The translations under genes and the position numbers were made by a program. A DNA stretch of 64,000 nt from a virus. Positions 11,302-56,798 of the stretch are shown here, piece by piece (positions within the stretch are counted from its first letter, which is position 1; every line of letters starts with the position of its first letter). The DNA lies in the IMG/VR virus record IMGVR_UViG_3300046820_002141, positions 1-64,000 of that record. One strand, given 5' to 3'. The notes beneath the pieces are model-generated. The model saw only the letters and a program-made list of their open reading frames with translations. It searched no databases and was not told the origin of the DNA.

Positions 11302-11302
11302 T

Positions 11303-41100: not shown

Positions 41101-42181
41101 TTTCAACGTAAGAAATTAAAGTGGATTTTGCGATTGGAAGGTCAATATAATTTAACCAAAATTCTATTGTAAAGTCTCCATCAAAAATTATTTCATTATT
41201 TAGAAAACTATAAGTATAATTGTCTTGACTTAACAATAAACTACCTTGATTAACAGAATTAAATGTATCGTCTATAGTACCATCGGCATTAAATCTTACA
41301 ATATTATTTATATAATTTAAAGTACCATCATCGATTACCGTAAAATCACCTCCTGCTATTATTTTACCATCTGATTGTGTCGCAATTGAATTTACAATAG
41401 TTGTGCCTGTGTTTCCAGTGCCTCCTGTAAATGTTGCATTTTGGAAATTACCATCAACACCTCCAGCCGCAAAGGTATCTAAACATGTTTTACAATCATT
41501 AAAAACTAAAGAACTTTCTAAAATTGGTGTGCCGCCTGAAACATCTGACCAATCACCCATGTACATACTTGACACTACTGTTTTACAACTTGAGTCTCCA
41601 TAAGGTAAATTAACCACAGAACCTTTATCATAGAAAGGTTGGTGACTTAATATGATGCTTTGAGTTCCTCCTGAACAATCTTCTACCAAATAATATATAC
41701 CATTTGATTCAATAGCTTGATTACAAGTATTGTAAGGTACGTAATTTATTAATTTTGGAATATAACTTTCATATGTAAAAGGTAATATATTCGTTATAAT
41801 CGCCGGAGTTCTTAAAAATTCAATTCCTGAGTCTTCGTAAACAACATCAAGAAAAACTATGTCATTTTTTTTAAATCTTTTATCAACTAATAAGGTCAAT
41901 CCTATTGTATCGACACATCCCGAAACTGTAACTACCTTTGTATTTGAGCTTAAACATGACTCACAATCACCGTATTCTGTTATATAAGAATGGGTAGAAG
42001 CCGTTGATGTAGAAGCCGAATAAAATGTGGCACACACTATTTCATATGGGTTATTAATACTTTGTAAATTAAATGTACCACCAGTAACAGATATATTACT
42101 ACCCACCACGTAAGTTATAGGTGTTCCTGTTATTGGTTGTACACAATCTTGGAAATCATAGTAAAAATTGAAAGCACTCAT
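29138..42181 (-). CDS. Giant modular adhesin / tail fibre protein, 4347 aa
   Basis: A 4347-residue protein from ATG 42181. Order (DNA positions): N-terminal Cys-containing domains (to about 41450), one delta-60 repeat (about 41440-41260), a LamG-like domain (about 41230-40690), then alternating Thr/Pro linkers (near 39880, 39555, 38170, 35960, 35300, 34700, 34030, 33480, 33050, 32540, 30300, 29955), Cys modules that start C-x-C, three beta-propeller-like segments (about 39480-38700, 38110-37215, 36040-36950), a delta-60 propeller (about 31780-30880), a PKD-like domain (about 29920-29700) and BspA/DUF285 repeats to the end. No signal peptide or enzyme motif is visible. The PKD-plus-BspA block is shared with the gene at 1-5585. 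A host-binding fibre is inferred. Confidence 0.88.
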   Translation of the reverse strand: MSAFNFYYDFQDCVQPITGTPITYVVGSNISVTGGTFNLQSINNPYEIVCATFYSASTSTASTHSYITEYGDCESCLSSNTKVVTVSGCVDTIGLTLLVDKRFKKNDIVFLDVVYEDSGIEFLRTPAIITNILPFTYESYIPKLINYVPYNTCNQAIESNGIYYLVEDCSGGTQSIILSHQPFYDKGSVVNLPYGDSSCKTVVSSMYMGDWSDVSGGTPILESSLVFNDCKTCLDTFAAGGVDGNFQNATFTGGTGNTGTTIVNSIATQSDGKIIAGGDFTVIDDGTLNYINNIVRFNADGTIDDTFNSVNQGSLLLSQDNYTYSFLNNEIIFDGDFTIEFWLNYIDLPIAKSTLISYVETGYTGWELHIFDSGEIEFEYSGTQLNFGTTLSPNNWYHVALVRENDVIDLYINGALDVNSGNTVTDTLKATTGTTFYIGTNWDKTSYIDANITNIRITNSSVYSGEFEPKRTPLTLNQSSYGNINSIISDDVQLLMNFKSESSFLVDESNNSSSFILSVPAITPITYTPIPTSTFKDVFSGKIDNSFYTLNLPDNYKLDLFGKEYDTIYLDSNNYITFDQGSGAGSLVLPEQIPSEVGSSGLFLSSYDNVFSDNSSFISRISTGFTDNGESFVVRVQGGLKSSLNAFCRCYMVTISSNYNLPSNATSISIIGRPCTTSFTNAPVTLFTMLPGETSSPFCAWEEPIVNASGFNYGPFITNPTSAWAFMTVINQNNGICQVEVQPNGATPYVCPPPPVTPTTTPTTTNTPTITPTKTVTRTVTRTRDADKVCWFIQYVPNPDFPNGTGTFIYFPPGLPIAYIYVTADNPTASVCYPSDGTYVPGQLISVTITNTLCVNDGDCVPETPTPTATVTKTLTPTITQTITSTPDLCLSGCYIILSTATNPGLFYSYNFNAGTFTQFSIPGLNSAIDVAFGTSTMFTLPQNTNNIIRRATIGSNTTCFPDGVQNITNIVVTTIPPLLPPPFNISLGPGLSRNPFTTTESVLAAQIGWIANTSHSVVSIFTAGINAGTTTVLFNLGDRTLVDGDIKGVFCNNIPTIFVTTVDTNSGPPVYRFEQWSSDANGVWTQDVQIQMPFSSDGIFVWEDNVYIVRKGFGNGIYRVNLTGPWTNPANNVTFITNGPAGVIISGADNKLNTNNCDENICVVIPPDCSCHTFTTGGFTTEIRFVTYRNCQNQLVTLDSTFFLIDDFTYGPFCVSNTSPITSDNIIINELGSCTNDGDCDPPNPPCACVSFFVKFGTEAPSNQTTISYLDCQGSPVVLTGLVNFPIDNTSYGPFCVSTVVNTINVTIVDFISTCTNQGDCVLPETPTPTPTKTMTPTVTRTLTKTPTNTPLPQCDVFLLWERPTGLFGTVLIQVVRLLGTATQTQIGLPISNNSVLRFGFCQTQIGFNGDCSNILKDIAHSYNVGTGITKIWVLTRQLRSTQGFYESRIFEWESQPYTLTFTTQPTVYTLSLSNSASDPWEPGNAMTGVDFNRVLVTNTAVSPNRVIRLTLNSGVVTSQQLFNLLPDVIVQGDIMLTSTNKLIFNTRSVNSPFVNRLYQYNYTTFALETIEELPNIPTSDLVTNGESGLYQDANGFINIIKNLNNTSADLYIANVAQFPNSWTLNNNLIAPFNSAGTFSSFKGASSNVICNPHELLPCLCYTYKWPNGSTTIPGSISFTDCNGNPITFAPIQSITPGSPATAGSFCSNMSLAQLEAQAINTDIDIAGLCGLEDSPCDIEECCFTQINFVLIRTSVIAQNNTFGWEVRSFNPTTNVWGVSLTSQVTTDARWTDIAHTWDPITSTGRGWILQKRRLTNGITQNRILEYSINSTLQWNFARNINFFAGSILGDSLTVYDSQYLLISQYFTTSQGQRLALVDYSVGGGSFTAVPTPLVPNIIIPCNVNTNPISTANPIAGGDFIVTRDSNDNPSKIIFAGYSNVWIDGGTNQNRIYQWNISTGVLESGIIIPYNSFSSAIEPVRLNGIIVNCDNIFIFNQTNNTLSDTRLFVLNTINGTLTPFIQGQPFQNYGNVRQIVGASSNFRCSTVELPPSITPTPTVTATLTKTPTKTPTRTVTKTVTPTVTKTPTRTVTSTKDPICRCHRFVYIGGPTDPNSTITVRRCGFANTTDFTLGFGNLFSSNASTARPYWNICVYDFTISNPSLVELEEITDVCDQFSIGPVGDCPNPPYCRCVTYVWTPAFSPNGTPIDGNVKYNPCGTNGISQTIVTPIGPNTINGSTLTICVQSGTVPALTYAQLVEIGDLCEEGQNCVQLTETPTPTPTKTPTRTITNTPTRTITPTKTVTQTLTSTPTPTLQDCFCYTFMLDEGFFDFGQITYTPCTSTSQTTVTLTYDFAVISICSSDVPTYDPNIQLIDDTVSCNSIAGCISDPTCRCTTFTWIPTYNSIGNPVLGRLSYEDCEGGTNNYVFGPDNVNFVLTITDCVAKISFVSSVIAVEVGQVCTYSPNDCQAITPTPTATSTVTPTKTPTRTNTPTVTKTITKTITQTNTVTQTGRVCRCTTVQFTLWGVPNASGFVTYRPCDQPNSQITLPLNNNQPFQTFCTEYPLQGSKYEIVSVDTQCNSDLDCETPPPCVCHVVTYIGPNAGGFRYFPCGVFHPAEPTTVLMPSEGTEFYVCVQLGQPQGIQPIATVGDVTAQPGILCNFDSCQPVSPTPTPTNTKTPTVTPTVTGTKTQTPTSTKTPTVTPTVTKTLTITPTITHTITITPTITNTSTVTPTKNESPTPTPTITKTITRTPTVTPTNPCGTCETVYLSYDCPTSPVTLGAGLGTECRTFVVELNSPNLFVGDLRLNMWDINSPPWSNVTVTVTDHNGNILVNEIFPPGTNMGDLPILYIPSNNTPNPIATLTFDRPCGGIMEFAITCLPVPNSPTPTPTKTLTPTITKTTTITPTITPTKLIDCGYGNQIPCYCYNIFNITDNQSVTIEYVLCDGGLNVDTETIFALGSVNICSPLPLLNLSEIQDLIIITQGQQCCGNNDCNISPNESPTPTKTITQTPTVTPTITPTVTISQTITSSLTVSPTVTQTVTKTSTVTPTVTQTPTLTQTITATLTQTSTVTRTRTPQGCYCFTFTNNNNNTSVIIPFINCFFEDDQVTVFAGVNNTASVCVYNGAFTINNENVTATISDECYLVNNNYSCFAPSPTPTQTSTVTATPTVTKTLTATPTSTITPTITSTQTQTVTVTPTVTKTSTVTQTQTVTTTQTVTQTPTLTKTVTVTPTLTVTSTVTNTPTVTTTITPTITKTSTPTVTRTKDNLCGPCTTQVYNVNCTPYAFPPAPIVYSIPAGQCQTITINIGDQLNGGPGYFDYYFSVTPSAGSTISISVDDNLQGSGISNSPVFNAAGTWNYQGYAFGPGTNVVTISIPCGGSVSATFQCADEANLGFTDIIYKFYSNNPGVFDVIINSNKTKGLVNPNSGISNGSDRYQQIFDGSSLKAYRFNSNGGQLNLPQFSTKTPLLIGNGVTNNGDGDTAQVKSLTVLNDNKILVGGEFTMYNETSVNNLIKLNNDGTFDSTFIQNSISGIVNSTFVNTDGSIIVGGDFTVTGMTSSYTNLVKLTKNGNLDTTFKVGNGFNGPVNVVKSLSDKTIVVGGKFTQYQGGTARGLVRLNSDGSLLTNYKGGFNVSSSYTPNVSDVVAFYNGTILVVGGDSDSNSWLTTFQGVNTPTNIVKLKSNGYVDQTFSSTTGFDGYVLSVSEQFDGKLIIGGYFDCYEDVNGSTCGLSGLTRLNSNGLIDDTFPDLSAFDGPISKTFIKPNTLELYVGGEFETPYDRLVKIYAGGRYQLYEFTGCNGTLGFVYLPTAPTNNVVKARVNQSTVICGYVGSIVVSGDTNIFYSEGNTYYTSCSECNEIYQVKLLVREAGKSDYVINRTMTESQIDKVLTDGPIFSTGGPEIYEILDFWLGSDNVTEVPPTPTPSVTKTPTVTKTATVTKTITPTITTTIEPTQTSTPTPTVTKTITATITYTPSVTETTTQSPTITKTVTPTQSCLCLSFENTGTTEVEITLMSCESYEIYIKLQAGSSTRFCCTSVISTDPSVVQTNNGPCSDGRCPGTPTPTPSNTLTPTITPTPTQPEKAFISVWSGSSVTLPYNGIGTYSGTIDWGDGSVSANTFANRTHTYSGSGTWTITITGTITGWASSNAPTENNKLLEIKQWNNVKNVFGQAASFSGCSNLVLTGVTDTYDFNGVTNTLNMFPGCTSITTINNISSWNVSGVTNLGNMFNGCINFNDDISTWDVSNVISVSNMLYSATSFNQNLGSWDISNVSGFSDFMAYCGISTANYDNTLVGWANLTLQTGRYFGAYGLTYTSAGAGGTARSSIISNYSWSFVGDSGV
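30182..30415 (-). repeat. Thr/Pro linker repeat DNA
   Basis: Low-complexity stretch made of GTTGGTGTT, GTTTTAGTT and GTAACTGTT-like units on the plus strand, encoding alternating Thr with Pro, Val, Lys or Ile between domains of the giant adhesin. It is imperfect and has no fixed spacer. Confidence 0.75.
32376..32710 (-). repeat. Longest Thr/Pro linker repeat in the giant adhesin
   Basis: About 335 bases of imperfect 6- and 12-base units, encoding T-x-T-P-T-V-type repeats of more than 100 residues. The strand bias is strong: the plus strand is G/T-rich. Confidence 0.75.
32937..33175 (-). repeat. Thr/Pro linker repeat DNA
   Basis: A further imperfect G/T-rich repeat of the same family within the giant adhesin, between two C-x-C modules. 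Confidence 0.72.
33897..34170 (-). repeat. Thr/Pro linker repeat DNA
   Basis: Imperfect G/T-rich repeat encoding a Thr/Pro/Val/Ile linker between a domain starting CGTCETVYLSYDC and the preceding C-x-C module. Confidence 0.72.
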
Positions 42182-44624: not shown

Positions 44625-45200
44625 TCATTTGACCTTGTAATTGTTATAGTCAGACGATTTTGGCTCTTCATTTTTGAAGAAATATTTTTCTTTTTTATTT
44701 CCGTAAGTTATAATTTTTGTAAAAGAATCAGGTACAGTTGCTCCTGTAGACAAAATTTTTGAATTTTTAGTATAATTCATCCTGATTTCAACTGAGACAG
44801 TGTTACTTTTTGCGAGTTCCCTTTCACGAACCTCAAGAAGTCTCCATACTCCACGATTAAGTTTCTCATGTTGGAGTACACAATTAAGATATGAGAAACT
44901 TTGTTTTAAATTTTCTTTATTACAGTTAAAGTCTGCGGCTGGCGCCAAATGACCCTTATCGTATACATTATTTTCATAGTCTTCCTCACTTGAGGTAACA
45001 ATTCCTTTCACAGGGTAAAAATCAAGACCTTTACGAGATATTGTACCATCAGTACATAATACCTTATATTCTACCCATTTTGGTTGTTGCAACTTTTCAG
45101 AATATACTACATTAAAAATAGATGTGGTCACATAAACCGAATCTCTAAGTTGTGCATTTGTTAGTAATGGTAGAAAAAACAATAAAAATAAAAACCTCAT
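44625..45200 (-). CDS. Secreted DNA/RNA non-specific endonuclease
   Basis: A 191-residue protein. Residues 1-16 form a signal peptide ('LLFFLPLLTNAQ'). The beta-beta-alpha-metal nuclease signature is present: 'YDKGHLAPAADF' (catalytic His84; family consensus is DRGH, here DKGH) and 'LNCVLQHEKLNRGVW' (about 105-119), with metal-binding Asn115. Family members such as Serratia NucA degrade DNA and RNA outside the cytoplasm. It has its own ATATTTATA motif and lies 27 bases before the subtilase gene, so both secreted enzymes may be co-expressed. Degrading host or competing phage DNA in the periplasm is one possible role. Confidence 0.85.
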   Translation of the reverse strand: MRFLFLLFFLPLLTNAQLRDSVYVTTSIFNVVYSEKLQQPKWVEYKVLCTDGTISRKGLDFYPVKGIVTSSEEDYENNVYDKGHLAPAADFNCNKENLKQSFSYLNCVLQHEKLNRGVWRLLEVRERELAKSNTVSVEIRMNYTKNSKILSTGATVPDSFTKIITYGNKKEKYFFKNEEPKSSDYNNYKVK

Positions 45201-45218
45201 ATGTAAAAAACATTTACA

Positions 45219-45227
45219 TATAAATAT
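45219..45227 (-). promoter_or_regulatory. ATATTTATA motif before the secreted nuclease gene
   Basis: Exact minus-sense nonamer, 18 bases before the ATG at 45200. It probably drives the nuclease-subtilase pair, since only 27 bases without a motif separate those two genes. Confidence 0.5.
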
Positions 45228-45291
45228 CGTTGTTTAAGTTTGGTGACTCTTGTGTTAAACCACTTTATGTCGAATCATAATAAGGTTTCGT

Positions 45292-45702
45292 CTACTTTTC
45301 TATTACAACTTGGTTTTCACCCACTTTGAATCTATAAAGGTCTGATTGTCTGAATACAGTTATTACTACAAGTTTCCAATAAGTACCTGTTTGTTTTTCA
45401 GGTGAAACCGCCATCGCAAGTTCCCACCTGTTAGATACTAGAACAAATGGCTCACTTTCTTCAATTTCACCATTTATGATTTTTTCAGCAATATCTCTTT
45501 TAAACATTCGTATGAATTCCACAATTTCTGAGTTAGATACCGGTCTCTGATTATAGTCCTCTAAGTCTCTTCCCCCGCCTCTGTAATTGGAATGTTTCGT
45601 AGTGATAATATCAAAACCAAAAACAATTTCAAAATTAGTTGATATTTGACCTATCTTCTTTTCAAGAATTAGATGTTTTTTTATAGTCTCTCTAAGATTC
45701 AT
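45292..45702 (-). CDS. Tagged hypothetical protein, 136 aa
   Basis: Begins 'MNLRETIKKHLILEKKIGQ', closely resembling the T4 internal-protein capsid-targeting peptide in layout: a short amphipathic helix ending I-L-E. The remaining ~117 residues form an alpha/beta domain ('YWKLVVITVFRQSDLYRFKV') that I do not recognise. It lies directly downstream of the major capsid gene behind a terminator and its own motif. Its position makes a packaged head protein the best guess. Confidence 0.65.
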   Translation of the reverse strand: MNLRETIKKHLILEKKIGQISTNFEIVFGFDIITTKHSNYRGGGRDLEDYNQRPVSNSEIVEFIRMFKRDIAEKIINGEIEESEPFVLVSNRWELAMAVSPEKQTGTYWKLVVITVFRQSDLYRFKVGENQVVIEK

Positions 45703-45706
45703 ATTA

Positions 45707-45715
45707 TATAAATAT
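45707..45715 (-). promoter_or_regulatory. ATATTTATA motif before the 45702 gene
   Basis: Exact minus-sense nonamer, 4 bases before the ATG at 45702, and following the capsid-gene terminator. If it is a promoter -10 element, the transcript would be leaderless or nearly so. Confidence 0.5.
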
Positions 45716-45734
45716 TTTGTTAAATAAAAGATAA

Positions 45735-45763
45735 TAAAAAAGGGACGATTTCTCGTCCCTTTT
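45735..45763 (-). terminator. Terminator after the major capsid gene
   Basis: GGGACGA / TTTC / TCGTCCC 7-bp stem with a 4-base loop; in the minus sense it is followed by a run of T. It lies 20 bases after the capsid stop at 45783. Confidence 0.88.
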
Positions 45764-45782
45764 AAATATACTATAGATAAGA

Positions 45783-47645
45783 TTATCTAAGTTCTTGTAA
45801 ATCAAATGTACGTACACCATCAACTGTGATACGTCCGTAGAAACGGTTATTAACCATCTTCTTAGCATAACGTGTCATGATACCCTTAATAGGTGTAAAG
45901 TTGAATGGATTGTACATAGTTGGAGTTAATTGAAGTGGTACATACGGTGCGTAAATGTAACCAGTGTCAAGTAACGATGTACCTTTGTGACCAATCAATA
46001 CTTGGTTTGGTGGGAAGTATGGGTCACGATAAACCTGGTAACGACCAGCTAAAGTACCCACTCTTTCAATACCCATGTTGTATTGGTCTTGCTCAGGTGA
46101 TGCATTAGAAACGTGGAAGTATTCTAAGTCATCAAAGATTGCAGAAACCTCAGATGATACAACAATCCAGTTAGCTCCACCACGAAGTGTTGACTTGTGG
46201 ATTTGAGCCGACAATTGGTTGATTGCCGTAATCAAAGTTTGGTTCCAATCTTTCTGAGTGTAAGATGTAGTTTGAGAAACTCTTCTCCAACCGTTGTAGT
46301 CCCAACGTAAGTTCCAAGCGGCACCCTTACGAAGGTCACGAAGAATTTCACGGTCAATTTCTGCCGCTACTTGCTCTGACAATAAAGCCGTCAATTCAGC
46401 TTCCGCATCAATGTTGTGGAATGCCGCAACGTCTTGAGCGAGTTCTGGAGACCACTGAGCTCTTAATTTTCTTTCAGCAACTGAAACAGTTACAGACTCA
46501 AGGTCAAAAGAAACCTCACCGATTTGGTCTTCAAATTCTAAGTTCTTGTAACGTCTGAACACAGCACTAAAGTCATTTGGTCCTAAACCGTCAATAGTGG
46601 TACCAGTGTAACCATCTAATGATGTTGAATCACAATTAGCACATGCAGGACAAGAAAGGTCAACTTCAACATAAATGCAACCAGTTGGGTCACAGATATT
46701 GTTGTAATAACCATTGTTACCTTCAGAAGGCCATGCCGCTTGTGCACGTGAAGAAAGACCTGATACGATACCTTGTCCGTATTGTTGAGTTACCACTCTG
46801 AACAATAAAGAATTAGGATTACCAAGTGCATCAAATGCGTTTTGGCAACCACCATCTTCCCATCCTGAAGTATTAGCAAATACTCTCAAATCAGACAAGA
46901 AAGTTTCTGAATCGTATTCATTACCGTCAGGTCCGATAAGTTTACCGTTACCTACATTAGCAAAACCACAGAATTTAACGATAGCTTTTCTAACGTTAAG
47001 TGTGTCAAATTCATTAGTGTAGTCAACCAAAGTACCGGCAGACCAAATCTGAACTGTACCTGTTACTGTAACTGCAGACCACTGACCTTTTGAGTAGTCG
47101 AATAAACCTGGAGGGTCTAATTGACCTTCATTACCTTCGTAGAATAAATCATAAAGATTCTTACCAAATTGGTTACCAACTGTATAACCAGCGTTAGGAT
47201 TACCAGGGTAGTTACCAGGACCTCCTACAGGAGATAAGTGACTTCCTGATGCTCCATCATAATCCGCAGAACCTAACTGAGCAGTTTCGTAAGGATTACC
47301 ACCACTGTAAGCTTGAATCTTTGGTACAAAGTAGAACAATTTACCGATAGGTAAGTTCATAGCTTGTACTGATACGATGTCATTAGCAAGTAATTTTGAG
47401 AATACACGTCTAACGATTGGGAATACAACAGTTTCAAATGAACCTGAAGAACCGTCAGAAGTTGCTTCGTTAATCAAATGTGACGCTTGGTTTTCATATA
47501 ACTGCGCAACATTTTCTTTTAGGTGACCACGAAGGCCTTCAAGGAACCCTAATTTGTCCCATTTGTTAATAGTATCTTCTTTGATAACTTTAAGGTGCTT
47601 AAGACCGATGTTACCAACAAGACCTGATTCTAATAATGCTCCCAT
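45783..47645 (-). CDS. Major capsid protein, T4 gp23-like
   Basis: A 620-residue homologue of T4 gp23 (521 residues). Shared elements: the N-terminal helical prodomain with 'LYENQ', cleavage site 'HLINE|ATSDG' after Glu60 (T4 'FLTE|A'), 'VVFPIVRRVFSKLLANDIVS', 'LRAQWSPELAQDVAAFHNID', 'GRYQVYRDPYF' and 'GYIYAPYVPLQLTPTMYNPF'. It forms the hexamer lattice of the prohead and would be trimmed by the protease at 49580. It carries extra sequence compared with T4, including a Cys cluster 'CPACANC' (about 46645). No nonamer precedes it; it probably shares the scaffold transcript, 26 bases upstream. Confidence 0.95.
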   Translation of the reverse strand: MGALLESGLVGNIGLKHLKVIKEDTINKWDKLGFLEGLRGHLKENVAQLYENQASHLINEATSDGSSGSFETVVFPIVRRVFSKLLANDIVSVQAMNLPIGKLFYFVPKIQAYSGGNPYETAQLGSADYDGASGSHLSPVGGPGNYPGNPNAGYTVGNQFGKNLYDLFYEGNEGQLDPPGLFDYSKGQWSAVTVTGTVQIWSAGTLVDYTNEFDTLNVRKAIVKFCGFANVGNGKLIGPDGNEYDSETFLSDLRVFANTSGWEDGGCQNAFDALGNPNSLLFRVVTQQYGQGIVSGLSSRAQAAWPSEGNNGYYNNICDPTGCIYVEVDLSCPACANCDSTSLDGYTGTTIDGLGPNDFSAVFRRYKNLEFEDQIGEVSFDLESVTVSVAERKLRAQWSPELAQDVAAFHNIDAEAELTALLSEQVAAEIDREILRDLRKGAAWNLRWDYNGWRRVSQTTSYTQKDWNQTLITAINQLSAQIHKSTLRGGANWIVVSSEVSAIFDDLEYFHVSNASPEQDQYNMGIERVGTLAGRYQVYRDPYFPPNQVLIGHKGTSLLDTGYIYAPYVPLQLTPTMYNPFNFTPIKGIMTRYAKKMVNNRFYGRITVDGVRTFDLQELR

Positions 47646-47671
47646 TGTTTTAATTTTTATTTATTTTAAGT

Positions 47672-49228
47672 TTATTTTAATTTTGCCATCAAGTCTTTCA
47701 TTCTCAGGAATTGAGGATTTTCATAAGTTTTTGACTCAATTAAGTTAACCGCAGAACCTGTAGCTGGAGCTGATTCAATTTTACGCTCTATCGACTCGTT
47801 CATTGGTTGACCTTGTACCGTTGAAAGTTCATCCTTGATTGTTTTATACAAATTTTTAGATTCTTTAATAGTTTCAACACCATCAAATCTTTTCAAGATA
47901 TTAATTTTTTCTTGTTTAGATGTTGAGTGTTCAGTAAACAAACGTGTCGCGTAAGCTAAATTTGAATTAAATACGGCAACTTCGTTTAATTTATTTCTGA
48001 ACACATTAAGTGCCTTTCTATACTCTTCGTTTTTCTCTCTAAGAATTTGTAATTCTGAAGAATCTACAGACTCAACTTTTAAGTGACGTGGTGCGGCTTT
48101 AGGTTTGTTCAAACCTTTTCTACCCCATCTCTTACCACTACCAAGTGTTCTTGAAGCTTCATTTGCTTCCACTTTCTTAGGCTTGTGTTTAAATTCACCA
48201 TCAAGAGTTTCCTTATCTTTGTATACATTAACTTTTTTAGCATTACCTGTACCCATAGTTTTGTCGGCACTCTTTTTAACTACTTTAAACCCTTGGCCTT
48301 GATTTGGATTTTTATTATATGAGAATTTTGGTTTACCCATACCCTTACCTTTGGCGTTAAATCCTTTTTTAGACTCTTCTAAAGATTCATTGTATTCTTC
48401 ATACTCTTCTTCTCCTTCTTCGCCTTCTTCTTCAGACATTTCGATTTCATACATTACCTCGTCTTCTTCAGACATTGGTTCAATGTCATCATCTGTAGGT
48501 TCAGACATTTCGATTTCGTACATAATTTCTTCACCTTCAGATTCTTCTTCATAAGACTCTTCATCTTCGTCTTCTTCATCTTCAGGATAGTCCATATACA
48601 CTTCGCCTTTGTCATATTTATCGCCAAATTTTTCTCTAGCTCTAGAAGCGATATTATCCCAAGGATTTTCTTCCTCTTCATCTTCAGAATCTTCGTCATC
48701 CCACATCTTACCAACGATATCGTCGATTGATTCATCGGTTGACCATGATTCTTCCATTTCTTGGGGAAGTTCTTCTTCATAGAACTCTTCTTCCATATCA
48801 GATTCACCTACAATCATGTATTCGTTTTCATCATCTTTAAGGTTGATGTTACCAGCATCGTCTTTTGTAACAATGATGTTATCATCAGGTCCCATAAGTT
48901 GGAATACACGAAGTACTTCTTCGTCTGATTTGTCGGTAAGGTCGATAGGTTCTTCCATATCTTCCTCTTCATCATCAGTATCCATGTCCATACCCATTTC
49001 CATGTCATCAGAGTCCATTTCGTCATCTGTTTCCATTTCAGGTTCTTCCATGTCTACGTCAGTCATTTCAATCTCATCTTCTTGTTCAGATAGAGATTCT
49101 TTTACTAATTCTTTGATTTCTTCCTTCATAGTAGAAGCAAGTATTCCTTTTGCATTTTCAGCAACCGCTTCTTCCAAATTTTTCATTTGGATGATTGCTT
49201 CCTCAACAATTGATTTTTCTTTTGCCAT
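47672..49228 (-). CDS. Scaffold / prohead core protein, T4 gp22-like by position
   Basis: A 518-residue, extremely acidic protein (Glu/Asp/Met runs from about 45 to 290) with a basic middle (about 290-385) and helical C-terminal part. It lies between protease and capsid genes, where T4 keeps gene 22, the main scaffold core. It contains several (I/L)-x-E sites, such as 'NLIESKTYENP' near the end, suited to digestion by the prohead protease during maturation. Its length is nearly twice that of T4 gp22. The call rests on position and composition, as sequence similarity of cores is low. Confidence 0.75.
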   Translation of the reverse strand: MAKEKSIVEEAIIQMKNLEEAVAENAKGILASTMKEEIKELVKESLSEQEDEIEMTDVDMEEPEMETDDEMDSDDMEMGMDMDTDDEEEDMEEPIDLTDKSDEEVLRVFQLMGPDDNIIVTKDDAGNINLKDDENEYMIVGESDMEEEFYEEELPQEMEESWSTDESIDDIVGKMWDDEDSEDEEEENPWDNIASRAREKFGDKYDKGEVYMDYPEDEEDEDEESYEEESEGEEIMYEIEMSEPTDDDIEPMSEEDEVMYEIEMSEEEGEEGEEEYEEYNESLEESKKGFNAKGKGMGKPKFSYNKNPNQGQGFKVVKKSADKTMGTGNAKKVNVYKDKETLDGEFKHKPKKVEANEASRTLGSGKRWGRKGLNKPKAAPRHLKVESVDSSELQILREKNEEYRKALNVFRNKLNEVAVFNSNLAYATRLFTEHSTSKQEKINILKRFDGVETIKESKNLYKTIKDELSTVQGQPMNESIERKIESAPATGSAVNLIESKTYENPQFLRMKDLMAKLK

Positions 49229-49247
49229 TTTTTGGTTTTAATTTTTA

Positions 49248-49256
49248 TATAAATAT
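49248..49256 (-). promoter_or_regulatory. ATATTTATA motif before the scaffold gene
   Basis: Exact minus-sense nonamer, 19 bases before the ATG at 49228, downstream of the terminator at 49309-49336. Confidence 0.55.
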
Positions 49257-49308
49257 TGTACAAATTCAAAAAAATTATCTATAATTGATATTTTGAATTA
49301 AATAAAAT

Positions 49309-49336
49309 AAAAAAAGGAGGGATAAACCCTCCTTTT
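49309..49336 (-). terminator. Terminator between the 49574 gene and the scaffold gene
   Basis: GGAGGG / ATAAA / CCCTCC 6-bp stem with A-run and T-run flanks; in the minus sense it ends in a T-run. The 130-base gap 49229-49358 holds only this and the promoter-like motif. Confidence 0.85.
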
Positions 49337-49358
49337 CTTTCTTATTGTTATACTAAGA

Positions 49359-49574
49359 TTATTCTATCACTTCATCAATCTTACTTTCATCAATTGCGGT
49401 TATTCTCCAATCTTCAGAATAATTTTCAAAAACTTTAGTCACTTTTGCTTCTACATCTGTTGGTGAATAACCTTTAACTAATTTTTCTTGTCTTAGTTTT
49501 TTAATTTTACCTGTCTCTGGGTCAGGCATGTCTGTCGTAATTTTTGCTACAAAATATTTTTCGTCCATATTCAT
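49359..49574 (-). CDS. Small protein, DUF4494-like
   Basis: A 71-residue protein ('KYFVAKITTDMPDPETGKIK', 'EKLVKGYSPTDVEAKV') with the pattern of DUF4494, a small family typical of Bacteroidota: a strand, a Lys-rich turn and 'A.s..eAea.v'. It starts 5 bases after the protease stop and is closed by a terminator. Function unknown; position suggests a head-assembly helper. The family match is tentative. Confidence 0.5.
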   Translation of the reverse strand: MNMDEKYFVAKITTDMPDPETGKIKKLRQEKLVKGYSPTDVEAKVTKVFENYSEDWRITAIDESKIDEVIE

Positions 49575-49579
49575 TGTTT

Positions 49580-50305
49580 TTAATATTTCAAATAATCGTT
49601 TAATTTTTTCATTAAGTCAAGTGACTTGTTTGAACTTTCTCCAGAAGTTCTTTCGGATTTCATTTTTTTTTCATCATCTAAATTTTCCTCAAAATTAAAT
49701 CTATCATTTGGCTCCAAGAATAAATAAGCACCAGGTGTAGATGGTGACCATACAAGGTCAAAACAGATTAATTCAAAATCATCCTGAACTTCATTTTGTT
49801 CTCCCACTTTTTTTAATGACCCAACACCACGAGATGATATACCTAAAGTAACTCCTTGTCTTAATAGATTTGCCGCTTGGTCTCCCTTAGTTGAGACAAT
49901 TCCTCTTTCGTGAAATCCTGGTGAAGTTAACAATTTTAATTTCCCCATCAAAACAGGACCTTCCCACCAGATTTCAGTTATCGCATGCGAAACCCTATCT
50001 AAGTCAACAAGTGAAGACTCAGGATGGTTAAGCTCAGATAAAGCAATACCCTTATCAATCATTTTTGTATAATTGTTAGCTTCTCTTTTTAATATTTTTT
50101 CAGGATATATTCTACCGTTTCTATTCGGAGTATTATACTTTTGTAAAACCGCATAAAACTCGAATGGTTTTGAGTGGTCTAACATTCCTTTAGATTCACG
50201 TATTAAATTAGCATTACGCTCATCTGTTGGTGATATGTACCCAGCATCGTATTCAACAAGTATCCCTTTTCCAACTTGACCTGGCTGTATGATTTGATGA
50301 TTCAT
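49580..50305 (-). CDS. Prohead protease, T4 gp21-like (S77 type)
   Basis: A 241-residue serine protease of the T4 prohead type. Visible signature regions are 'RNGRIYPEKIL' (about 62-72), His94 in 'ELNHPESSL', 'GKLKLLTSPGFHERG' and 'LGISSRGVGS' (about 154-163, nucleophile Ser157 or Ser158). It would cleave scaffold, capsid and targeted internal proteins after (L/I)-x-E. The C-terminal ~35 residues are acidic and Ser-rich, possibly removed by self-cleavage. It is the key link to the tagged proteins in this window. Confidence 0.93.
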   Translation of the reverse strand: MNHQIIQPGQVGKGILVEYDAGYISPTDERNANLIRESKGMLDHSKPFEFYAVLQKYNTPNRNGRIYPEKILKREANNYTKMIDKGIALSELNHPESSLVDLDRVSHAITEIWWEGPVLMGKLKLLTSPGFHERGIVSTKGDQAANLLRQGVTLGISSRGVGSLKKVGEQNEVQDDFELICFDLVWSPSTPGAYLFLEPNDRFNFEENLDDEKKMKSERTSGESSNKSLDLMKKLNDYLKY

Positions 50306-50319
50306 CTTTAATTTTTCTT

Positions 50320-50328
50320 TATAAATAT
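50320..50328 (-). promoter_or_regulatory. ATATTTATA motif before the prohead protease gene
   Basis: Exact minus-sense nonamer, 14 bases before the ATG at 50305, overlapping the stop codon of the preceding gene. Confidence 0.52.
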
Positions 50329-50798
50329 TAAAGATTATCGGTTTCTGTTTTATCTACCTTAGTTTTTTTAGTTTTAGTTAGATGAAATTTAAAATATTCG
50401 TTGTTTGTAAAATTATCTTGAAACACCTGTTTACATACTTTCTTTAAAGCGTCCTTAATTCTTTTTGATTTAAAATCTGTTTCTGAACCTGATAAATAAA
50501 AATTAACTTCTAAGTTTAAAAATGATTTTTTACCTTTTTGTAGTCCGCTGGACCTTAAATCCAAATCAACAATAAATTTGTTGTCAAATAAAATTTTATC
50601 TAATGATTCTAAAACTGAATGTTTTATAGACCTGCTTAAATTTAAAACTATCCTATTCCAATTTTCTGAGTTTATTTTGGGGTCAACCCATGTTTGAATG
50701 TTGAGGTATAGTGATTTTAAATTAACCGAATCAACTGTGCCATAGATTACCTTGGCAGTTTTGAACCCCTGAATTTGCGAGGTCTTCCCCTTTTTCAT
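50328..50798 (-). CDS. Hypothetical head-region protein, 156 aa
   Basis: A basic alpha/beta protein ('KVIYGTVDSVNLKSLYLNIQ') of unknown family. I use ATG 50798; a TTG immediately before it would add one residue. It lies between portal and protease genes, where T4 has the small core genes 67 and 68, but I see no sequence similarity to those. No membrane segment or tag. The 93 bases upstream contain the divergent bS21 promoter region. Confidence 0.6.
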   Translation of the reverse strand: MKKGKTSQIQGFKTAKVIYGTVDSVNLKSLYLNIQTWVDPKINSENWNRIVLNLSRSIKHSVLESLDKILFDNKFIVDLDLRSSGLQKGKKSFLNLEVNFYLSGSETDFKSKRIKDALKKVCKQVFQDNFTNNEYFKFHLTKTKKTKVDKTETDNL

Positions 50799-50840
50799 CA
50801 ACTTTTCATATTATACAAGTTTATTTTTAAAAAAAATAAG

Positions 50841-50848
50841 TATATTTG
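50841..50848 (+). promoter_or_regulatory. Possible host-type promoter for bS21
   Basis: TATATTTG exactly fits the Bacteroidota -7 consensus TAnnTTTG, 43 bases before the ATG at 50892. No clear -33 TTG element is visible at the expected distance, so confidence is modest. It differs from the ATATTTATA elements used by the surrounding genes. Confidence 0.4.
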
Positions 50849-50891
50849 TATCGATAGTCAAAAAAAATTTATTTATAGATATTTCTAATAT

Positions 50892-51083
50892 ATGATAATA
50901 GTTAAGTTAGATAAAAATACAAACATTGAGAGGGCACTTAAAATTCTCAAGAGCAAGGTTATTAGAACAAAACAAACTGCTGAGTTGGTTAATAGAAAAG
51001 AATATACCAAAAAATCTGTTAAAAAGAGAGATATTCTTAAAAAAGCCAAATACGTTCAAAAAAAGAAAGATTCCGAAAATTAA
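50892..51083 (+). CDS. rpsU: Ribosomal protein bS21 homologue
   Basis: A 63-residue basic protein with the bS21 pattern over its full length, and specifically the Bacteroidota form: 'MIIVKLDKNTNIERALKILK' (start strand and first helix), then 'RKEYTKKSVKKRDILKKAKY' and a Lys-rich tail. bS21 joins the small subunit late, near the 3' end of 16S rRNA, and helps hide the anti-Shine-Dalgarno sequence in Flavobacterium ribosomes. A phage copy could replace the host protein and alter which mRNAs are translated. It is alone on the plus strand within the head cluster, ends 4 bases into the convergent gene and has a host-like -7 element upstream. Confidence 0.85.
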   Translation: MIIVKLDKNTNIERALKILKSKVIRTKQTAELVNRKEYTKKSVKKRDILKKAKYVQKKKDSEN

Positions 51084-51802
51084 AGGCTTTCGTTTAATCC
51101 CTTTAATTTGAAGAATGACAATTTGTTATACGTCTCAGAATCAACTTTTGTTATTGTTTCCTCGACTCTATTTAAAGTGTCAGTATCTGTCGTGCTTTCT
51201 TTTAATGAAGTTAATTTTGATTTAACCTCATCTTTGATTGATTCAAATTGTGGCTCTAATTCAGAATCCTCAGTTTTCAAAAATTTAATTAATTCCTGTC
51301 TATCTGATTCGTTTAAATTTTCCACATAGTTTGAAAATGTTTTATTTGCAATATTAACCATTGTTGATATTGGTAACTTAACAGTTTCTTTATTTTTAGT
51401 TACGGGTGACCTAGATAAATTTTCAGAAATTATTTTTTTACTTTTTAAACGAGATTCAATTGTTAGAACGTCAGTTGAAAATAAATTATCAATATTCTCG
51501 TATTTATTTTCACACTTAACAGTTGAGACCCACGACTTTAATTTAGATATTGTTGATTCATCAATTTTGTTTATAGTGTTTTCATAAATTGTAATACACT
51601 CATAAATGTAATCATTAACCAAAGATTCACTTAAACCTTTATTAGAACTCATCTCATCATATAGATAAAACAATTTACTAATATTTTTATTACCTAAAAC
51701 TAAAGATTTAAAATTCTTCATTTCAGATTTAAAAGTATTATTAGAATAAGATTCAAGTAACTTTTCTTCAATCTTTGATTTAATATTTCCGAACTTAATC
51801 AT
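51080..51802 (-). CDS. Hypothetical head-region protein, 240 aa
   Basis: A predominantly helical, Ser/Lys/Glu-rich protein between portal and protease genes. Sequence runs such as 'NESDRQELIKFLKTEDSELE' and 'VEETITKVDSETYNKL' suggest long helices. It ends 'LKGLNESL', an L-N-E site. By position it may be a core or assembly protein like T4 gp67/68, though the sequence gives no proof. It overlaps the convergent bS21 gene by 4 bases. Confidence 0.65.
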   Translation of the reverse strand: MIKFGNIKSKIEEKLLESYSNNTFKSEMKNFKSLVLGNKNISKLFYLYDEMSSNKGLSESLVNDYIYECITIYENTINKIDESTISKLKSWVSTVKCENKYENIDNLFSTDVLTIESRLKSKKIISENLSRSPVTKNKETVKLPISTMVNIANKTFSNYVENLNESDRQELIKFLKTEDSELEPQFESIKDEVKSKLTSLKESTTDTDTLNRVEETITKVDSETYNKLSFFKLKGLNESL

Positions 51803-51815
51803 TTTCTTTTTTTAT

Positions 51816-51824
51816 TATAAATAT
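51816..51824 (-). promoter_or_regulatory. ATATTTATA motif before the 51802 gene
   Basis: Exact minus-sense nonamer, 13 bases before the ATG at 51802 and touching the portal stop codon. Confidence 0.52.
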
Positions 51825-53623
51825 CAATCTCTTAGAAGTTTTTCTAACTGAGATTCCATTTGACCCAATGAATTTCTAGCCTTGGATAAATCTATATAAG
51901 ATTCTTCGTCAATAAGGGAATCACTTTCTAATAGAATATTTAAATTATCCCTATTAAATGATTCCGGTGTCACTCCTCCTTCCACAGGTGCCGGTGGTGG
52001 GGGTAATTCAGCTCCTCCGGCCTCACCACCAGGAGGTGGAGGAGGAGTTGCGGCTGATGAAGCGGTCGCTCCTGAACCAGGACCACCGTATAATTTATCA
52101 ACATTATCAAATACTCCAGTGTGAGCAATTATTGTTGCAGTGTTTGTTAATTCAGCACCAACTGCCTTTTCAATTCGCTGTTGTTGTAAATCAAGTTTAA
52201 TTTCTTCATCAGAGAAACCTAAAATATGTTTCTTAGCCCAAGAAACCGATACCGGAGCTATACCTTCAATAGCGGTAACCGCATCTTTGTATAATAACAT
52301 TTTTTCTTTCCAAACATCGATTTTGAGTAAGTCAGCTTGGGTAGATGGATTAGTTAATCCTAAAGTAAAATTGTTTAACTCATCCTCAAAACCTAATAGA
52401 AATAAGTGAATAATAGCAACCTTATTTAACTCCGCAATCATACACTTTTGAATTCTATTAATAGTACGAGCGAAACGAATGTCCTGTAATGATAAGTTTT
52501 TACCTTCTCCTACGACTTCTTCAAAACCTAAAAACGCTTTTGGTACACGAAGCGCAGTTAATAGTTTCTTTTGAATATATTCAATATCTGCAATTTCAGA
52601 TAAATTTTGAGCACCTGCTAAAGTTTCGATTGGAGATGCTTGTGCTGGGTCACGAACTGGAATAAAATAATCCTGGTCAACCGCCATTTGGTTAAATCTC
52701 AAATCAACATTACCCGTTTGACTGTCAACGACTTGACTTCTCTTAAATTTGTTGGCAACACGTTGTACATACGCCTCAACATCTTTATCGTCCATATTAC
52801 CAACAAACACTTTAAACACTCTTCTTTCAGGTGCCCTTGATGTTCTGTATATCAACATAGCATCTTCAGATAACAATAATTGTTTCCAAATACGACGAGC
52901 CTTTTCAAGCATAGAAGTTCCATATGGAAGTTTTCTATCGTCACCCATTAATCTAAAGTGAGCTATTTCCCATGAATTAAACTCCATGTCCTTAGCCTTC
53001 CATTTAAATCTTAAACCTCTGTTTTCTTTGGGTTCCTCAACGTTCTGAGATTTTGCCGGCATACCTCTTTCCAAACGTTCAATTTCAATATTTGGAAGTT
53101 GCATACATCCAACAACTCCTTTATCAGAATCTAATTTTAAATAAACAAAATTATCACCATATTTACATGTGTTTCTTGTCCACATTGGTAAATTGGTATT
53201 AACATCAAGTACATTATTAAACAAATCCGCCAAAATCCCTTTTATTCTTTTTGATTCAGAATAAATCTGTAACATAAAACCATTTTGGTCTACAGTTGTT
53301 GATTCTTCCCCATAAATGTCCAAAGCGGCAGAAATTTCTGGTGTATATTCCATTGATTCGTAATCATAAAACGACGCCAATCTTGTTGGCTCGTAATATA
53401 CCGCTTGGGTATAAAGATTACTTTCTATTTTTGTCCACTGGTTTGCAAGATAATATGTTTGTTGAGCTTGTAATAACTCTTTTTCGTACTCTTGCTTAGA
53501 TGTGGTTTTTAATAACTCTTGTTTGTCAAACTTATATGTTGGGTAATCTTGATTAAGTAACGCATTTGGTCCAAACGCTCTTGTTAATCTTTGCCATACC
53601 GTTAACTGCTTATTATTTTCCAT
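51824..53623 (-). CDS. Portal protein, T4 gp20-like
   Basis: A 599-residue portal protein that would form the dodecameric DNA-entry vertex, connect to the tail and bind the terminase. Typical T4-portal-type segments are visible: 'EYTPEISAALDIYGEESTTV' (about 92-111), 'YGTSMLEKARRIWKQLLLSE' (about 234-253), 'LLIYRTSRAPERRVFKV' region, 'FKRSQVVDSQTGNVD' and 'IEYIQKKLLTALRVPKAFL'. The C-terminal 90 residues include a Gly/Pro-rich insert ('TPPPPPGGEAGG') and acidic helices. It lies 36 bases after the terminase stop. Confidence 0.93.
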   Translation of the reverse strand: MENNKQLTVWQRLTRAFGPNALLNQDYPTYKFDKQELLKTTSKQEYEKELLQAQQTYYLANQWTKIESNLYTQAVYYEPTRLASFYDYESMEYTPEISAALDIYGEESTTVDQNGFMLQIYSESKRIKGILADLFNNVLDVNTNLPMWTRNTCKYGDNFVYLKLDSDKGVVGCMQLPNIEIERLERGMPAKSQNVEEPKENRGLRFKWKAKDMEFNSWEIAHFRLMGDDRKLPYGTSMLEKARRIWKQLLLSEDAMLIYRTSRAPERRVFKVFVGNMDDKDVEAYVQRVANKFKRSQVVDSQTGNVDLRFNQMAVDQDYFIPVRDPAQASPIETLAGAQNLSEIADIEYIQKKLLTALRVPKAFLGFEEVVGEGKNLSLQDIRFARTINRIQKCMIAELNKVAIIHLFLLGFEDELNNFTLGLTNPSTQADLLKIDVWKEKMLLYKDAVTAIEGIAPVSVSWAKKHILGFSDEEIKLDLQQQRIEKAVGAELTNTATIIAHTGVFDNVDKLYGGPGSGATASSAATPPPPPGGEAGGAELPPPPAPVEGGVTPESFNRDNLNILLESDSLIDEESYIDLSKARNSLGQMESQLEKLLRD

Positions 53624-53651
53624 TAAGTTAATTTAAACACTTTATCAATAA

Positions 53652-53660
53652 TATAAATAC
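53652..53660 (-). promoter_or_regulatory. Near-exact ATATTTATA motif before the portal gene
   Basis: In the minus sense this reads GTATTTATA, 28 bases before the ATG at 53623 and overlapping the terminase stop codon. One mismatch from the consensus. Confidence 0.42.
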
Positions 53661-55420
53661 TATCTACCTCCGAATAACCATCCATATTTCATATAATCGT
53701 CTTTAGTCACGTTTTGTTGGTTATGTTGATTCATCCTTTCATTGAAATTAGGGATAACAGGATTAAACGCCAATTGATTGGTAACATTTTCATTATTACT
53801 AACAGACCACGATTCAATCATGGCTTTAGTTTGTTCTGTAACTTTTGTTAATTGACTGAATGATGATTCCGCAACGTATGTTGCCATGGCTATGGACATA
53901 ATTAAGTCATCGTGGTGTCCTTTTTGGTGGTCAGGTCTTCCGTTAATGTAAACAAAAGTGTTCATTTCATTGAACAATCTATTACTGTAAATTTTAAAGT
54001 CGTGTCTCATAACTTCCTCAAATGAGGCAATAATTTGAACTCTTTTGTTATTAAAATTAATTCCGGGTATTTTTTCAGCGGCTTTGGGGTCCCATTTCCA
54101 TTTGTTTGCAATATCAACACCATCAACATATAGATTTTTAAATCCCATTTCTTGCATTTTTCTTGCGGTTGATACACCCATCCCTCCTGTGATATCTATA
54201 ACAACAAAACAAGAATACATATTGGCCCACTTATAACAAACCTCAGCCATTGTATCGGGAGGTAATTTACCCACGTACTCAGCAACTTGCTCTCTCTCAT
54301 CAAAATCTATAATTTGAAATGAACTAAAGTCCTCACTATCTCCCCTACTAACGTCTACACCCATAACATATTTGTGACCAACAACAGGTTCTTTCCAAAT
54401 CCAAAGAGCATTACCCATCATTTTATTTTGCGGTTCTCTTATATAATTTTCCCTAACTTTCTGTAATAAATTAGAATCAAATACGTTGTCACCAGAGCCC
54501 AAAAAGTTACATTCCAACTCTTGAGAAACTTTACGTTTGTCGTATTTTAATTTCTTAACCATACCCTCAAACCAATTTGAACATGGTTTGTACCCCGTAT
54601 CCATAATAAGTTTAAGCTCTTCATAGTTTCTATCATCAAACGGAATACTTTCCCAACTGATAATATCATCCTGTTTATATTCTTCTTTATTCAACAAGTA
54701 ATGAATAATATCTTTTGTTTTAACCAAATATAAATCTCTAGTATATCTTGGGTCTCTAAACCAATACATTTCAGAAATTTTGAAATCGTTCATATTTCTT
54801 AATGCTTGGTCATAAATTTCATAATAGATTGGGTCATATCCGTTAGGTGTTGAAACAACAATTACTTTACCTCCCGTAGATAGGGATGCCATACAAGCCG
54901 CCCAAAAGTCAGAATCGGCATCGATAAACGCCGCCTCGTCAAATATTAATATTGTTGGTGTGAATCCACGAAGTGCGTCCTTAGATGTTGCAACCGCTTT
55001 TACTTCACAACCATTATTTAATTTATAATGTTTTTGAGAATCTTTTTCCGCAGAAAATCCAACTCCAACCCAATCAGGCCATTGTGTTATAAAAGCCCTT
55101 ATTTTATTCGCCATTTCTTGGGAAGTATCAAGTTTGTTGGCGATAATTAGAATTTTTTCAGGTTTGTTTTTCTTTGCGAAAGCTAACTTCTTAGATACCC
55201 AAGCGGCCGTAACCGTCGAAACTCCCGCCTGTCTATATTTTAACGCAATATTTTCGTTAAAGTTCTCATAGTCATTAAGTAATGAAATTTGGTCAGGAAA
55301 TAATTCCAGCGGGACGTATTTTGAAACCGTGTTATCGTATGTCTGCAAATAAGTACGGAGAGCATATGGAGTATCCTTCATACATTTCACATACTCTAAC
55401 ATTAATTGTTCTTTTGTCAT
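53660..55420 (-). CDS. terL: Terminase large subunit, T4 gp17-like
   Basis: A 586-residue packaging motor and nuclease. The ATPase part: a variant Walker A 'KYRQAGVST' (61-69), lacking the usual Lys before Ser/Thr but with Lys61 at the start, as in lambda-type motors; Walker B 'ILIFDEAAFID' (about 157-167) and motif III 'VIVVSTPNG'. The RNase H-like nuclease part: Asp356 ('GVDVSRGD'), Asp409 ('VVIDITGG') and Asp504/505 ('GHHDDLIM'). It would cut concatemers and drive DNA into the prohead through the portal. The gene follows a terminator and carries an exact promoter-like motif. Confidence 0.95.
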   Translation of the reverse strand: MTKEQLMLEYVKCMKDTPYALRTYLQTYDNTVSKYVPLELFPDQISLLNDYENFNENIALKYRQAGVSTVTAAWVSKKLAFAKKNKPEKILIIANKLDTSQEMANKIRAFITQWPDWVGVGFSAEKDSQKHYKLNNGCEVKAVATSKDALRGFTPTILIFDEAAFIDADSDFWAACMASLSTGGKVIVVSTPNGYDPIYYEIYDQALRNMNDFKISEMYWFRDPRYTRDLYLVKTKDIIHYLLNKEEYKQDDIISWESIPFDDRNYEELKLIMDTGYKPCSNWFEGMVKKLKYDKRKVSQELECNFLGSGDNVFDSNLLQKVRENYIREPQNKMMGNALWIWKEPVVGHKYVMGVDVSRGDSEDFSSFQIIDFDEREQVAEYVGKLPPDTMAEVCYKWANMYSCFVVIDITGGMGVSTARKMQEMGFKNLYVDGVDIANKWKWDPKAAEKIPGINFNNKRVQIIASFEEVMRHDFKIYSNRLFNEMNTFVYINGRPDHQKGHHDDLIMSIAMATYVAESSFSQLTKVTEQTKAMIESWSVSNNENVTNQLAFNPVIPNFNERMNQHNQQNVTKDDYMKYGWLFGGR

Positions 55421-55435
55421 AAGACTGTATTTGTA

Positions 55436-55444
55436 TATAAATAT
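55436..55444 (-). promoter_or_regulatory. ATATTTATA motif before the terminase gene
   Basis: Exact minus-sense nonamer, 15 bases before the ATG at 55420, directly downstream of a terminator hairpin. Confidence 0.55.
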
Positions 55445-55445
55445 T

Positions 55446-55471
55446 AAACCCCCAACTAAGTGGGGGTTTTT
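55446..55471 (-). terminator. Terminator before the terminase gene
   Basis: AACCCCCA / ACTAAG / TGGGGGTT gives an 8-bp stem with a 6-base loop just past the stop at 55473. In the minus sense the T-run is short (TTTAATATTT), but the stem is strong. Confidence 0.75.
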
Positions 55472-55472
55472 A

Positions 55473-56798
55473 TTATAGACCTAAACTTGAAAGGTCAACA
55501 TCATCGATATCATCGTCCTCCCATTTGGAGGATTCTTGTTCATATTCTTGTTTCTTTAAATCTGAAACAATCTCATCAACCATTCTTTGCATGGCCTTTG
55601 TTCCTGATGGGTCTCCGTTTAATACTGCCTTAGCAAATTTGAAGAATTCTTCTGCCGGTAATTTAGAAAATCTCATGAACAAATAATGTTGAATATGTTT
55701 CTTATCTTCATCGAATAATTCGATTGGATAGGCCTCGGTGAATTTTTCCCAAAATACAGGTCCTAATCTCATATCCCATATTTCTGCAGGTAGGGTATCT
55801 TCAGCTCCCATAACCATTTCGGCTTGACGTGGGTCATCCGGTAAACCGTGAGTACCAAATATTTCATAAATACCCTTAATCAATTCGTGAATAAGAAGTG
55901 GGAATGTTGCGGCTCTCGCTTTTACAGTTGGTGGGTCGGTTTCAGGGTCAACACTTGTTTGCCCCATCTGACCTTCACCACTTGCCGCCATACCTTCCAT
56001 ATCAGGCATTACCCAATAAAGGTGGTCCATAAGTGATTGATTAACACCATATAGATTTACTAAATTAGGGTCAAGACGACTTAATTCATCTCTAACCAAT
56101 TCAAACATATAGTGACCTTTCTTAGAGGCTCCTTGAATTAATGAATTAATAAACCTTCTTTTTGCTTTTTCTAAATTAAATTTTTCAAACTCGTCGGCAA
56201 AATCTTCCAATTCTTCTTGATGTTTAAAAGCTTGTTTAACATCTTCTTTACTTGGTTTTTGTGGTTCGCTCCTCATACCTTCAGCGGATGACAAAGGTCC
56301 CTGGACCAATTTTGCATCAAATTGCATCGCTCCGTCAGGAATACCCATTTCTTTTTTAACCAAATCAACCGCCAATCTCTCGAGATATTCTTTATTTTGA
56401 AATTCAATCCTCATCACTTGTTGTAGAGACTGCATGGCCATACCCATAAGTTGCATGAGTGGATTACCACCCTGTAAAGGTGCTGTAGTACCCAAATATC
56501 GTCTTACAGTATCAACGGAATCTTTGAATCTTTTTGAAGAAACTAACTCAACAAAGTCTCTATCACCCTTAGGTAAAGCCGGATTTTCAGAATATGGAGT
56601 TTCTTTACTAGTTATTTTTCTCTCGATGTCACGACCCATTCTTTCAGGACCTTCGTAATCAATCGGAGCCTCGTTCAACTTTGATTTAAGTTTTTTCAAT
56701 GTTTGTTTTTCTTTTGTCGTTAGACCTTCAGAAACCAATTTTTTTTCTAAATTGTTCCTTTCTGTAATAACTTTTTTCATATTAGGATTGAAACTCAT
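55473..56798 (-). CDS. Probable virion protein, 441 aa
   Basis: A helical, charged protein I cannot assign. The N-terminus (about 10-48) is a coiled-coil-like Lys/Glu helix followed by 'LNEAPIDYEGP', an L-N-E site. The middle has an amphipathic Met-rich patch ('LMQLMGMAMQSLQQVM'), and the C-terminus is acidic ('WEDDDIDDVDLSSLGL'). It lies immediately upstream of terminase in the same direction and 1 base after the 56800 gene. Location suggests a neck, completion or packaging-associated role, which is inference only. Confidence 0.62.
   Translation of the reverse strand: MSFNPNMKKVITERNNLEKKLVSEGLTTKEKQTLKKLKSKLNEAPIDYEGPERMGRDIERKITSKETPYSENPALPKGDRDFVELVSSKRFKDSVDTVRRYLGTTAPLQGGNPLMQLMGMAMQSLQQVMRIEFQNKEYLERLAVDLVKKEMGIPDGAMQFDAKLVQGPLSSAEGMRSEPQKPSKEDVKQAFKHQEELEDFADEFEKFNLEKAKRRFINSLIQGASKKGHYMFELVRDELSRLDPNLVNLYGVNQSLMDHLYWVMPDMEGMAASGEGQMGQTSVDPETDPPTVKARAATFPLLIHELIKGIYEIFGTHGLPDDPRQAEMVMGAEDTLPAEIWDMRLGPVFWEKFTEAYPIELFDEDKKHIQHYLFMRFSKLPAEEFFKFAKAVLNGDPSGTKAMQRMVDEIVSDLKKQEYEQESSKWEDDDIDDVDLSSLGL

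Follow-up and report, generated by a model that had tools for sequence, protein, structure and literature searches.

The locus described here raises the question of why a phage should carry a gene for a ribosomal protein among the genes for its own head. We analyzed a window of 64,000 nucleotides, the first part of a linear IMG/VR virus record of 71,445 bases (IMGVR_UViG_3300046820_002141), in which a short open reading frame had been assigned to bS21. No ribosomal protein is commoner among phages than bS21, which in Bacteroidia lies directly on the anti-Shine-Dalgarno (anti-SD) sequence. The reading frame opens with ATG and closes with TAA (Table 1), and its product matched the Pfam family Ribosomal_S21 (PF01165) over profile positions 2 to 54 of 55 with 36.3 bits (E value of 4.5e-9), above the curated cut-off of 27 bits. 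Residues 1 to 61 matched chain z of PDB entry 7jil, annotated as 30S bS21 (E value of 1.8e-6), and a second 30S bS21 chain in the PDB was matched across residues 1 to 59. Entry 7JIL is taken as the Flavobacterium johnsoniae ribosome by Chen et al. 2022 (PMC9723584). The Pfam score and the first of the PDB matches bear out the claim, made in an earlier sequence-only reading of the window, that all 63 residues belong to bS21. No close copies of the window protein were found in the bacterial genomes that we searched.

Table 1. Features of the bS21 locus, in window coordinates
Feature	Position	Strand	Basis or remark
Phage bS21 (rpsU homologue), 63 aa, Y54 kept	50892..51083	+	Pfam, PDB, tree, residue pattern
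TATATTTG, −7-like box	50841..50848	+	TATATTT[GA] form in 23/57 distinct upstream regions
ATAGTCAAAAA element	50854..50864	+	GTCAA core in 56/57 distinct phage bS21 upstream regions; kept in L187
GATATTTCTAATAT, directly before ATG	50878..50891	+	putative function
AAAATAAAC element, upstream of the divergent 156-aa gene	50819..50827	−	conserved across relatives
Divergent neighbor, 156 aa, hypothetical	50328..50798	−	one of two candidates for bS21_CN of Chen et al.
Convergent neighbor, 240 aa	51080..51802	−	4-base overlap with the bS21 stop
Prohead protease (Peptidase_S77)	49580..50305	−	profile match
Portal (Gp20-like)	51824..53623	−	profile match
Terminase large subunit (T4-like)	53660..55420	−	profile match
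Major capsid protein (Gp23)	45783..47645	−	profile match

In a tree of 106 proteins, 56 phage bS21 proteins formed a single clade (support of 99/92), placed on the same side as Flavobacterium and huge-phage bS21 and away from most other Bacteroidota, in a tree built on 64 columns only and with unreliable deeper forks. The phage protein thus falls within bS21, near Flavobacteriales, and its earlier assignment to the Bacteroidota form was correct, the protein being a genuine bS21 of Flavobacteriales type. The virus is a myovirus of Bacteroidota, most likely of Flavobacteriales. Over 240 pairs of phage bS21 copies the median pairwise dN/dS was 0.18, and the copies are under purifying selection. 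We collected relatives of the locus from viral contigs by searching with the portal rather than with bS21, so the count of occupied slots is unbiased with respect to bS21. In 66 of the 67 portal-selected loci that hold both flanking genes, a bS21 gene lies between the two, encoded on the other strand. The one exception, contig L187, has no coding remnant of bS21 but has kept the upstream element (alignment score of 54, compared with 45 for the highest of 100 mononucleotide shuffles), which looks like gene loss; judging by this contig, the gene can be dispensed with or can have moved elsewhere. At positions 2533 to 2662 of L187, a GC-rich hairpin and a T run now come after the kept element. Collectively, these data identify the reading frame as a real, selected, phage-encoded bS21 of a published kind.

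As had been noted from the letters alone, bS21 stands by itself on its strand: it is the sole plus-strand gene within a block that holds the terminase, portal, prohead protease and major capsid protein (MCP) genes, all of them on the minus strand. Between its start and the divergent 156-aa gene lies a short intergenic region. The AlphaFold model of this neighbor (pLDDT of 89.6) has an alpha/beta fold, whose one close structural relative among viral proteins is A0A8S5L9A5 (TM scores of 0.79/0.84, 23% identity), and searches for solved relatives with Foldseek and VIA-align returned nothing convincing. The gene is retained in L187, so if it is bS21_CN, its presence is independent of bS21 in the slot. 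We considered the 156-aa and 240-aa neighbors as T4 gp68 and gp67, respectively, and rejected both for want of profile support. For the 240-aa gene, a possible relative is the post-portal gene of Flavobacterium phage vB_FspM_immuto (MW353176), a lead rather than a result given the weak match (173 columns, E value of 0.022, probability only 2%). Both phages possess a T4-like head cluster and their portals are 37.6% identical, whereas the immuto cluster is devoid of bS21 and all genes of its annotated stretch lie on one strand. A search for Rfam elements over positions 45000 to 56000 found none. The structural block also contains a single open reading frame of 4347 aa (29138-42181, minus strand).

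This arrangement was described by Chen et al. 2022 (PMC9723584), whose 47 jumbo myovirus genomes (clades a to e), from phages of freshwater Bacteroidetes, have a reverse-strand bS21 gene between two hypothetical genes in the region of the terminase, portal, protease and MCP genes. These authors also reported the aromatic residue 54, the divergence of the first helix, late co-transcription and the hypothesis that phage mRNAs are preferred. Our locus shares with these phages the slot, the strand, aromatic 54, the divergent first helix and a Flavobacteriales-like bS21, and it shows no clear difference from them, the likeness being drawn from the published description and for a 71-kb record that is probably a fragment. 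The genomes of Chen et al. measure 293 to 331 kb, and the largest of the portal relatives collected here has 203 kb, likewise lacking end repeats.

The protein itself was examined by comparing 56 distinct phage proteins with 47 distinct Flavobacterium proteins. Positions 18 to 31 of the first helix diverge strongly and consistently between phage and host. Arginine 21 is replaced by serine or glycine, phenylalanine 23 by valine or isoleucine, aspartate 24 by isoleucine, glycine 27 by arginine or lysine and threonine 28 by glutamine, and at these positions the phage set is unlike all or nearly all host residues. The divergent first-helix residues listed by Chen et al. (21, 23, 25 and 28) are matched here at 21, 23, 24 and 28, their Asp25 probably being D24 in our numbering. 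The residues A15, L16, K17, K20, K22, L32, R35, K40, S42, R46, K51 and A52 are kept. Residue 54 is aromatic in all 56 phage proteins (tyrosine in 45, including the window protein, and histidine in 11). In F. johnsoniae, the Y54 contact contributes to masking of the anti-SD (PMC9723584, PMC9976891), and the Y54A mutation raises the output of an rpsU reporter (PMC9976891). Since aromatic 54 is kept, masking should persist in ribosomes carrying the phage protein, and may do so where histidine replaces tyrosine, as in a fifth of the relatives. Any phage-specific effect probably lies in the altered first helix.

The phage gene and the host gene differ sharply in front of the start codon. In the host, loss of bS21 from ribosomes improves their translation of rpsU, by way of an extended SD, and impairs their initiation on SD-less mRNAs (McNutt et al. 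2023, PMC9976891). We counted as an extended SD any pairing to the 16S tail stronger than −13 kcal/mol and found one, at −18.4 to −22.8 kcal/mol, before rpsU in all 80 Flavobacterium loci analyzed. These loci had been selected for closeness to the F. johnsoniae protein, so they cover Flavobacterium and its near relatives rather than Bacteroidota as a whole. An extended SD is absent from all 68 distinct phage copies; the best pairing reached −8.5 kcal/mol, and the window copy, at −1.1 kcal/mol, lies outside the range of autoregulated Flavobacteriales rpsU. The phage protein and F. johnsoniae bS21 are therefore members of one family with a common aromatic 54, differing in that an extended SD and autoregulation are features of the host gene (PMC9976891), whereas the phage gene is SD-less and encodes a different first helix. 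With the extended SD before host rpsU and none before the phage gene, we infer that phage bS21 stands outside the feedback and host rpsU inside it. The gene, slot, strand, host phylum and retuning hypothesis are already published (PMC9723584); our additions are this 80/80 versus 0/68 contrast and the predicted escape from feedback.

The absence of an SD is not peculiar to bS21. Across 54 genes of the window, the median SD pairing was −1.55 kcal/mol, compared with −3.15 kcal/mol for mock windows, and no gene fell below −13 kcal/mol, which agrees with the A-rich, SD-less starts already noticed in the sequence-only reading. The missing SD before phage bS21 may thus be the genome-wide default rather than an adaptation. 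The strongest SD-like site of the 54 is AGGGGGG before the ATG of a methyltransferase gene (11276-11848, plus strand; −13.0 kcal/mol); it may be due to chance, as 6 mock windows were at or below −7 kcal/mol. Outside the group studied and unlike it, the bS21 gene of a 735-kb phage (L201, LR756501.1) is preceded by an SD-like AAGGAGG (−12.1 kcal/mol).

The time at which bS21 is made was approached through the upstream regions. Their strongest signal is GTCAA, the core of the ATAGTCAAAAA element, which is probably a promoter or 5′ leader. Of the 68 distinct phage copies, 41 have a form of GATATTTCTAATAT, RATATWT-N1/2-TA, no more than 25 nt from the ATG. The host-like −7 box that had been proposed does exist as TATATTTG, but it is exact within the window's own subclade and patchy elsewhere in the group, and for this patchiness we discarded it as a marker of host-like control. 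The pattern TAnnTTTG occurs 118 times in the window compared with 106 expected. The AAAATAAAC element recurs upstream of the MCP gene (47670-47678, minus strand) and is common to the upstream regions of both genes across relatives, in 40 of 50 for the 156-aa gene and 23 of 39 for MCP. Another motif, RATATTTATA, precedes many minus-strand structural genes at 13 to 40 nt from their starts (12 to 13 of 54 upstream regions; 0.58 expected for the core 8-mers) and is likely a phage promoter element. Taken in reverse complement, it reads as the T4 late promoter TATAAATA. Its core, ATATTTAT, was found upstream of the 240-aa gene in 41/41 cases and of the protease gene in 42/42, but of bS21 in only 1/57 and of MCP in 0/39, and it is likewise missing before the 156-aa gene. 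On these counts we rejected the idea that bS21 shares the head-gene motif, and our first reading of its upstream element as a late promoter was dropped, ATATTTAT being uninformative on timing. Because MCP also lacks ATATTTAT, its absence is no mark of early expression, and the split between ATATTTAT and AAAATAAAC suggests that promoter classes differ inside the head cluster. The sequence itself does not reveal when bS21 is made. In metatranscriptomes of phages with such an arrangement, bS21 transcripts accompanied those of MCP and further structural genes (PMC9723584), and by analogy with these relatives the data point to late expression together with the capsid genes. In view of these metatranscriptomes and of the patchy −7 box, the earlier suggestion that bS21 may be expressed at a different time from the head genes is not supported.

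The explanation that we favor, and consider probable, is that phage bS21 replaces its host counterpart in one direction only, so that ribosomes stay replete with bS21 for the SD-less messages of the phage. It builds on direct observations of the gene, its family, the fixed slot, selection, the residue pattern and the SD difference. From a gene fixed among what would be late head genes of a Bacteroidota myovirus, we infer that the protein would enter the host 30S subunit in place of host bS21 during capsid production. Aromatic 54 would keep the anti-SD masked, as in F. johnsoniae ribosomes. As bS21 fills the ribosomes, translation of host rpsU would fall but that of the phage message, with no extended SD, would continue unchecked, and the replete ribosomes would serve the SD-less phage mRNAs. 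That the phage captures the ribosomes of the cell by way of host autoregulation, its bS21 being made from an SD-less message well suited to bS21-replete ribosomes, filling the 30S subunits and thereby turning SD-dependent rpsU off, is a tentative suggestion short of probable; we found no earlier statement of it in the literature cited here, in which McNutt et al. suggest that host autoregulation counters the phage (PMC9976891). Because the phage gene has no SD and every Flavobacterium gene sampled has one, phage bS21 expressed by itself in F. johnsoniae is clearly predicted to lower the output of an rpsU reporter.

The most serious competitor is the proposal of Chen et al. 2022 that the altered first helix makes ribosomes favor phage over host mRNA. 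The consistent divergence of positions 18 to 31, with C-terminal contacts such as aromatic 54 kept, speaks for it, as does late expression alongside the capsid genes (PMC9723584). However, we found no feature that would discriminate phage from host mRNAs: the phage starts are A-rich and SD-less, and most Bacteroidia genes are likewise (PMC9976891). With no SD enrichment in phage genes, a preference exerted by unmasking the anti-SD is unlikely, and selective translation as a whole is possible rather than probable. The phage might instead merely replenish bS21, providing infected cells or the virion with extra protein for completing 30S subunits or for acting from the start of infection, with specificity unchanged. 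This idea accords with bS21 being exchangeable and a late joiner in assembly (PMC9976891) and with the virion packaging raised by Chen et al. (PMC9723584), but phage-specific first-helix residues consistent over 56 proteins suggest more than a spare copy, and we regard it as unlikely.

Experimental precedent comes from Pelagibacter phage HTVC008M, like our virus a large myovirus with bS21 under purifying selection. Unlike the Flavobacteriales-like window protein, its bS21 is of alphaproteobacterial origin; it was shown to enter E. coli 70S ribosomes (Mizuno et al. 2019, PMC6375957). When assayed in vitro in a system based on E. coli, the resulting ribosomes retained only about 5% of activity (PMC6375957), which fits poisoning as well as retuning and would favor a host shut-off in which phage bS21 lowers translation generally. 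Nevertheless, an alphaproteobacterial phage protein was paired there with E. coli ribosomes, so incompatibility may explain the loss; the phage itself needs heavy late translation, and the window protein resembles Flavobacteriales bS21 with its anchoring residues kept, which makes a shut-off quite improbable. An extraribosomal or capsid-related role of a bS21-like RNA-binding protein, which the fixed position between two head-cluster genes might suggest, is hardly credible, given that the conserved residues are those of ribosomal bS21, aromatic 54 included, that the gene is antisense to all its neighbors and that the published viral bS21 goes into ribosomes (PMC6375957).

Speculating further, McNutt et al. 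consider a protease, encoded by such phages, that might remove host bS21 (PMC9976891). About 10 kb from bS21, the window contains a gene for a Clp-type double AAA ATPase (61599-63644, plus strand) with matches to ClpB_D2-small and to phrog_4871, "ATP-dependent protease".
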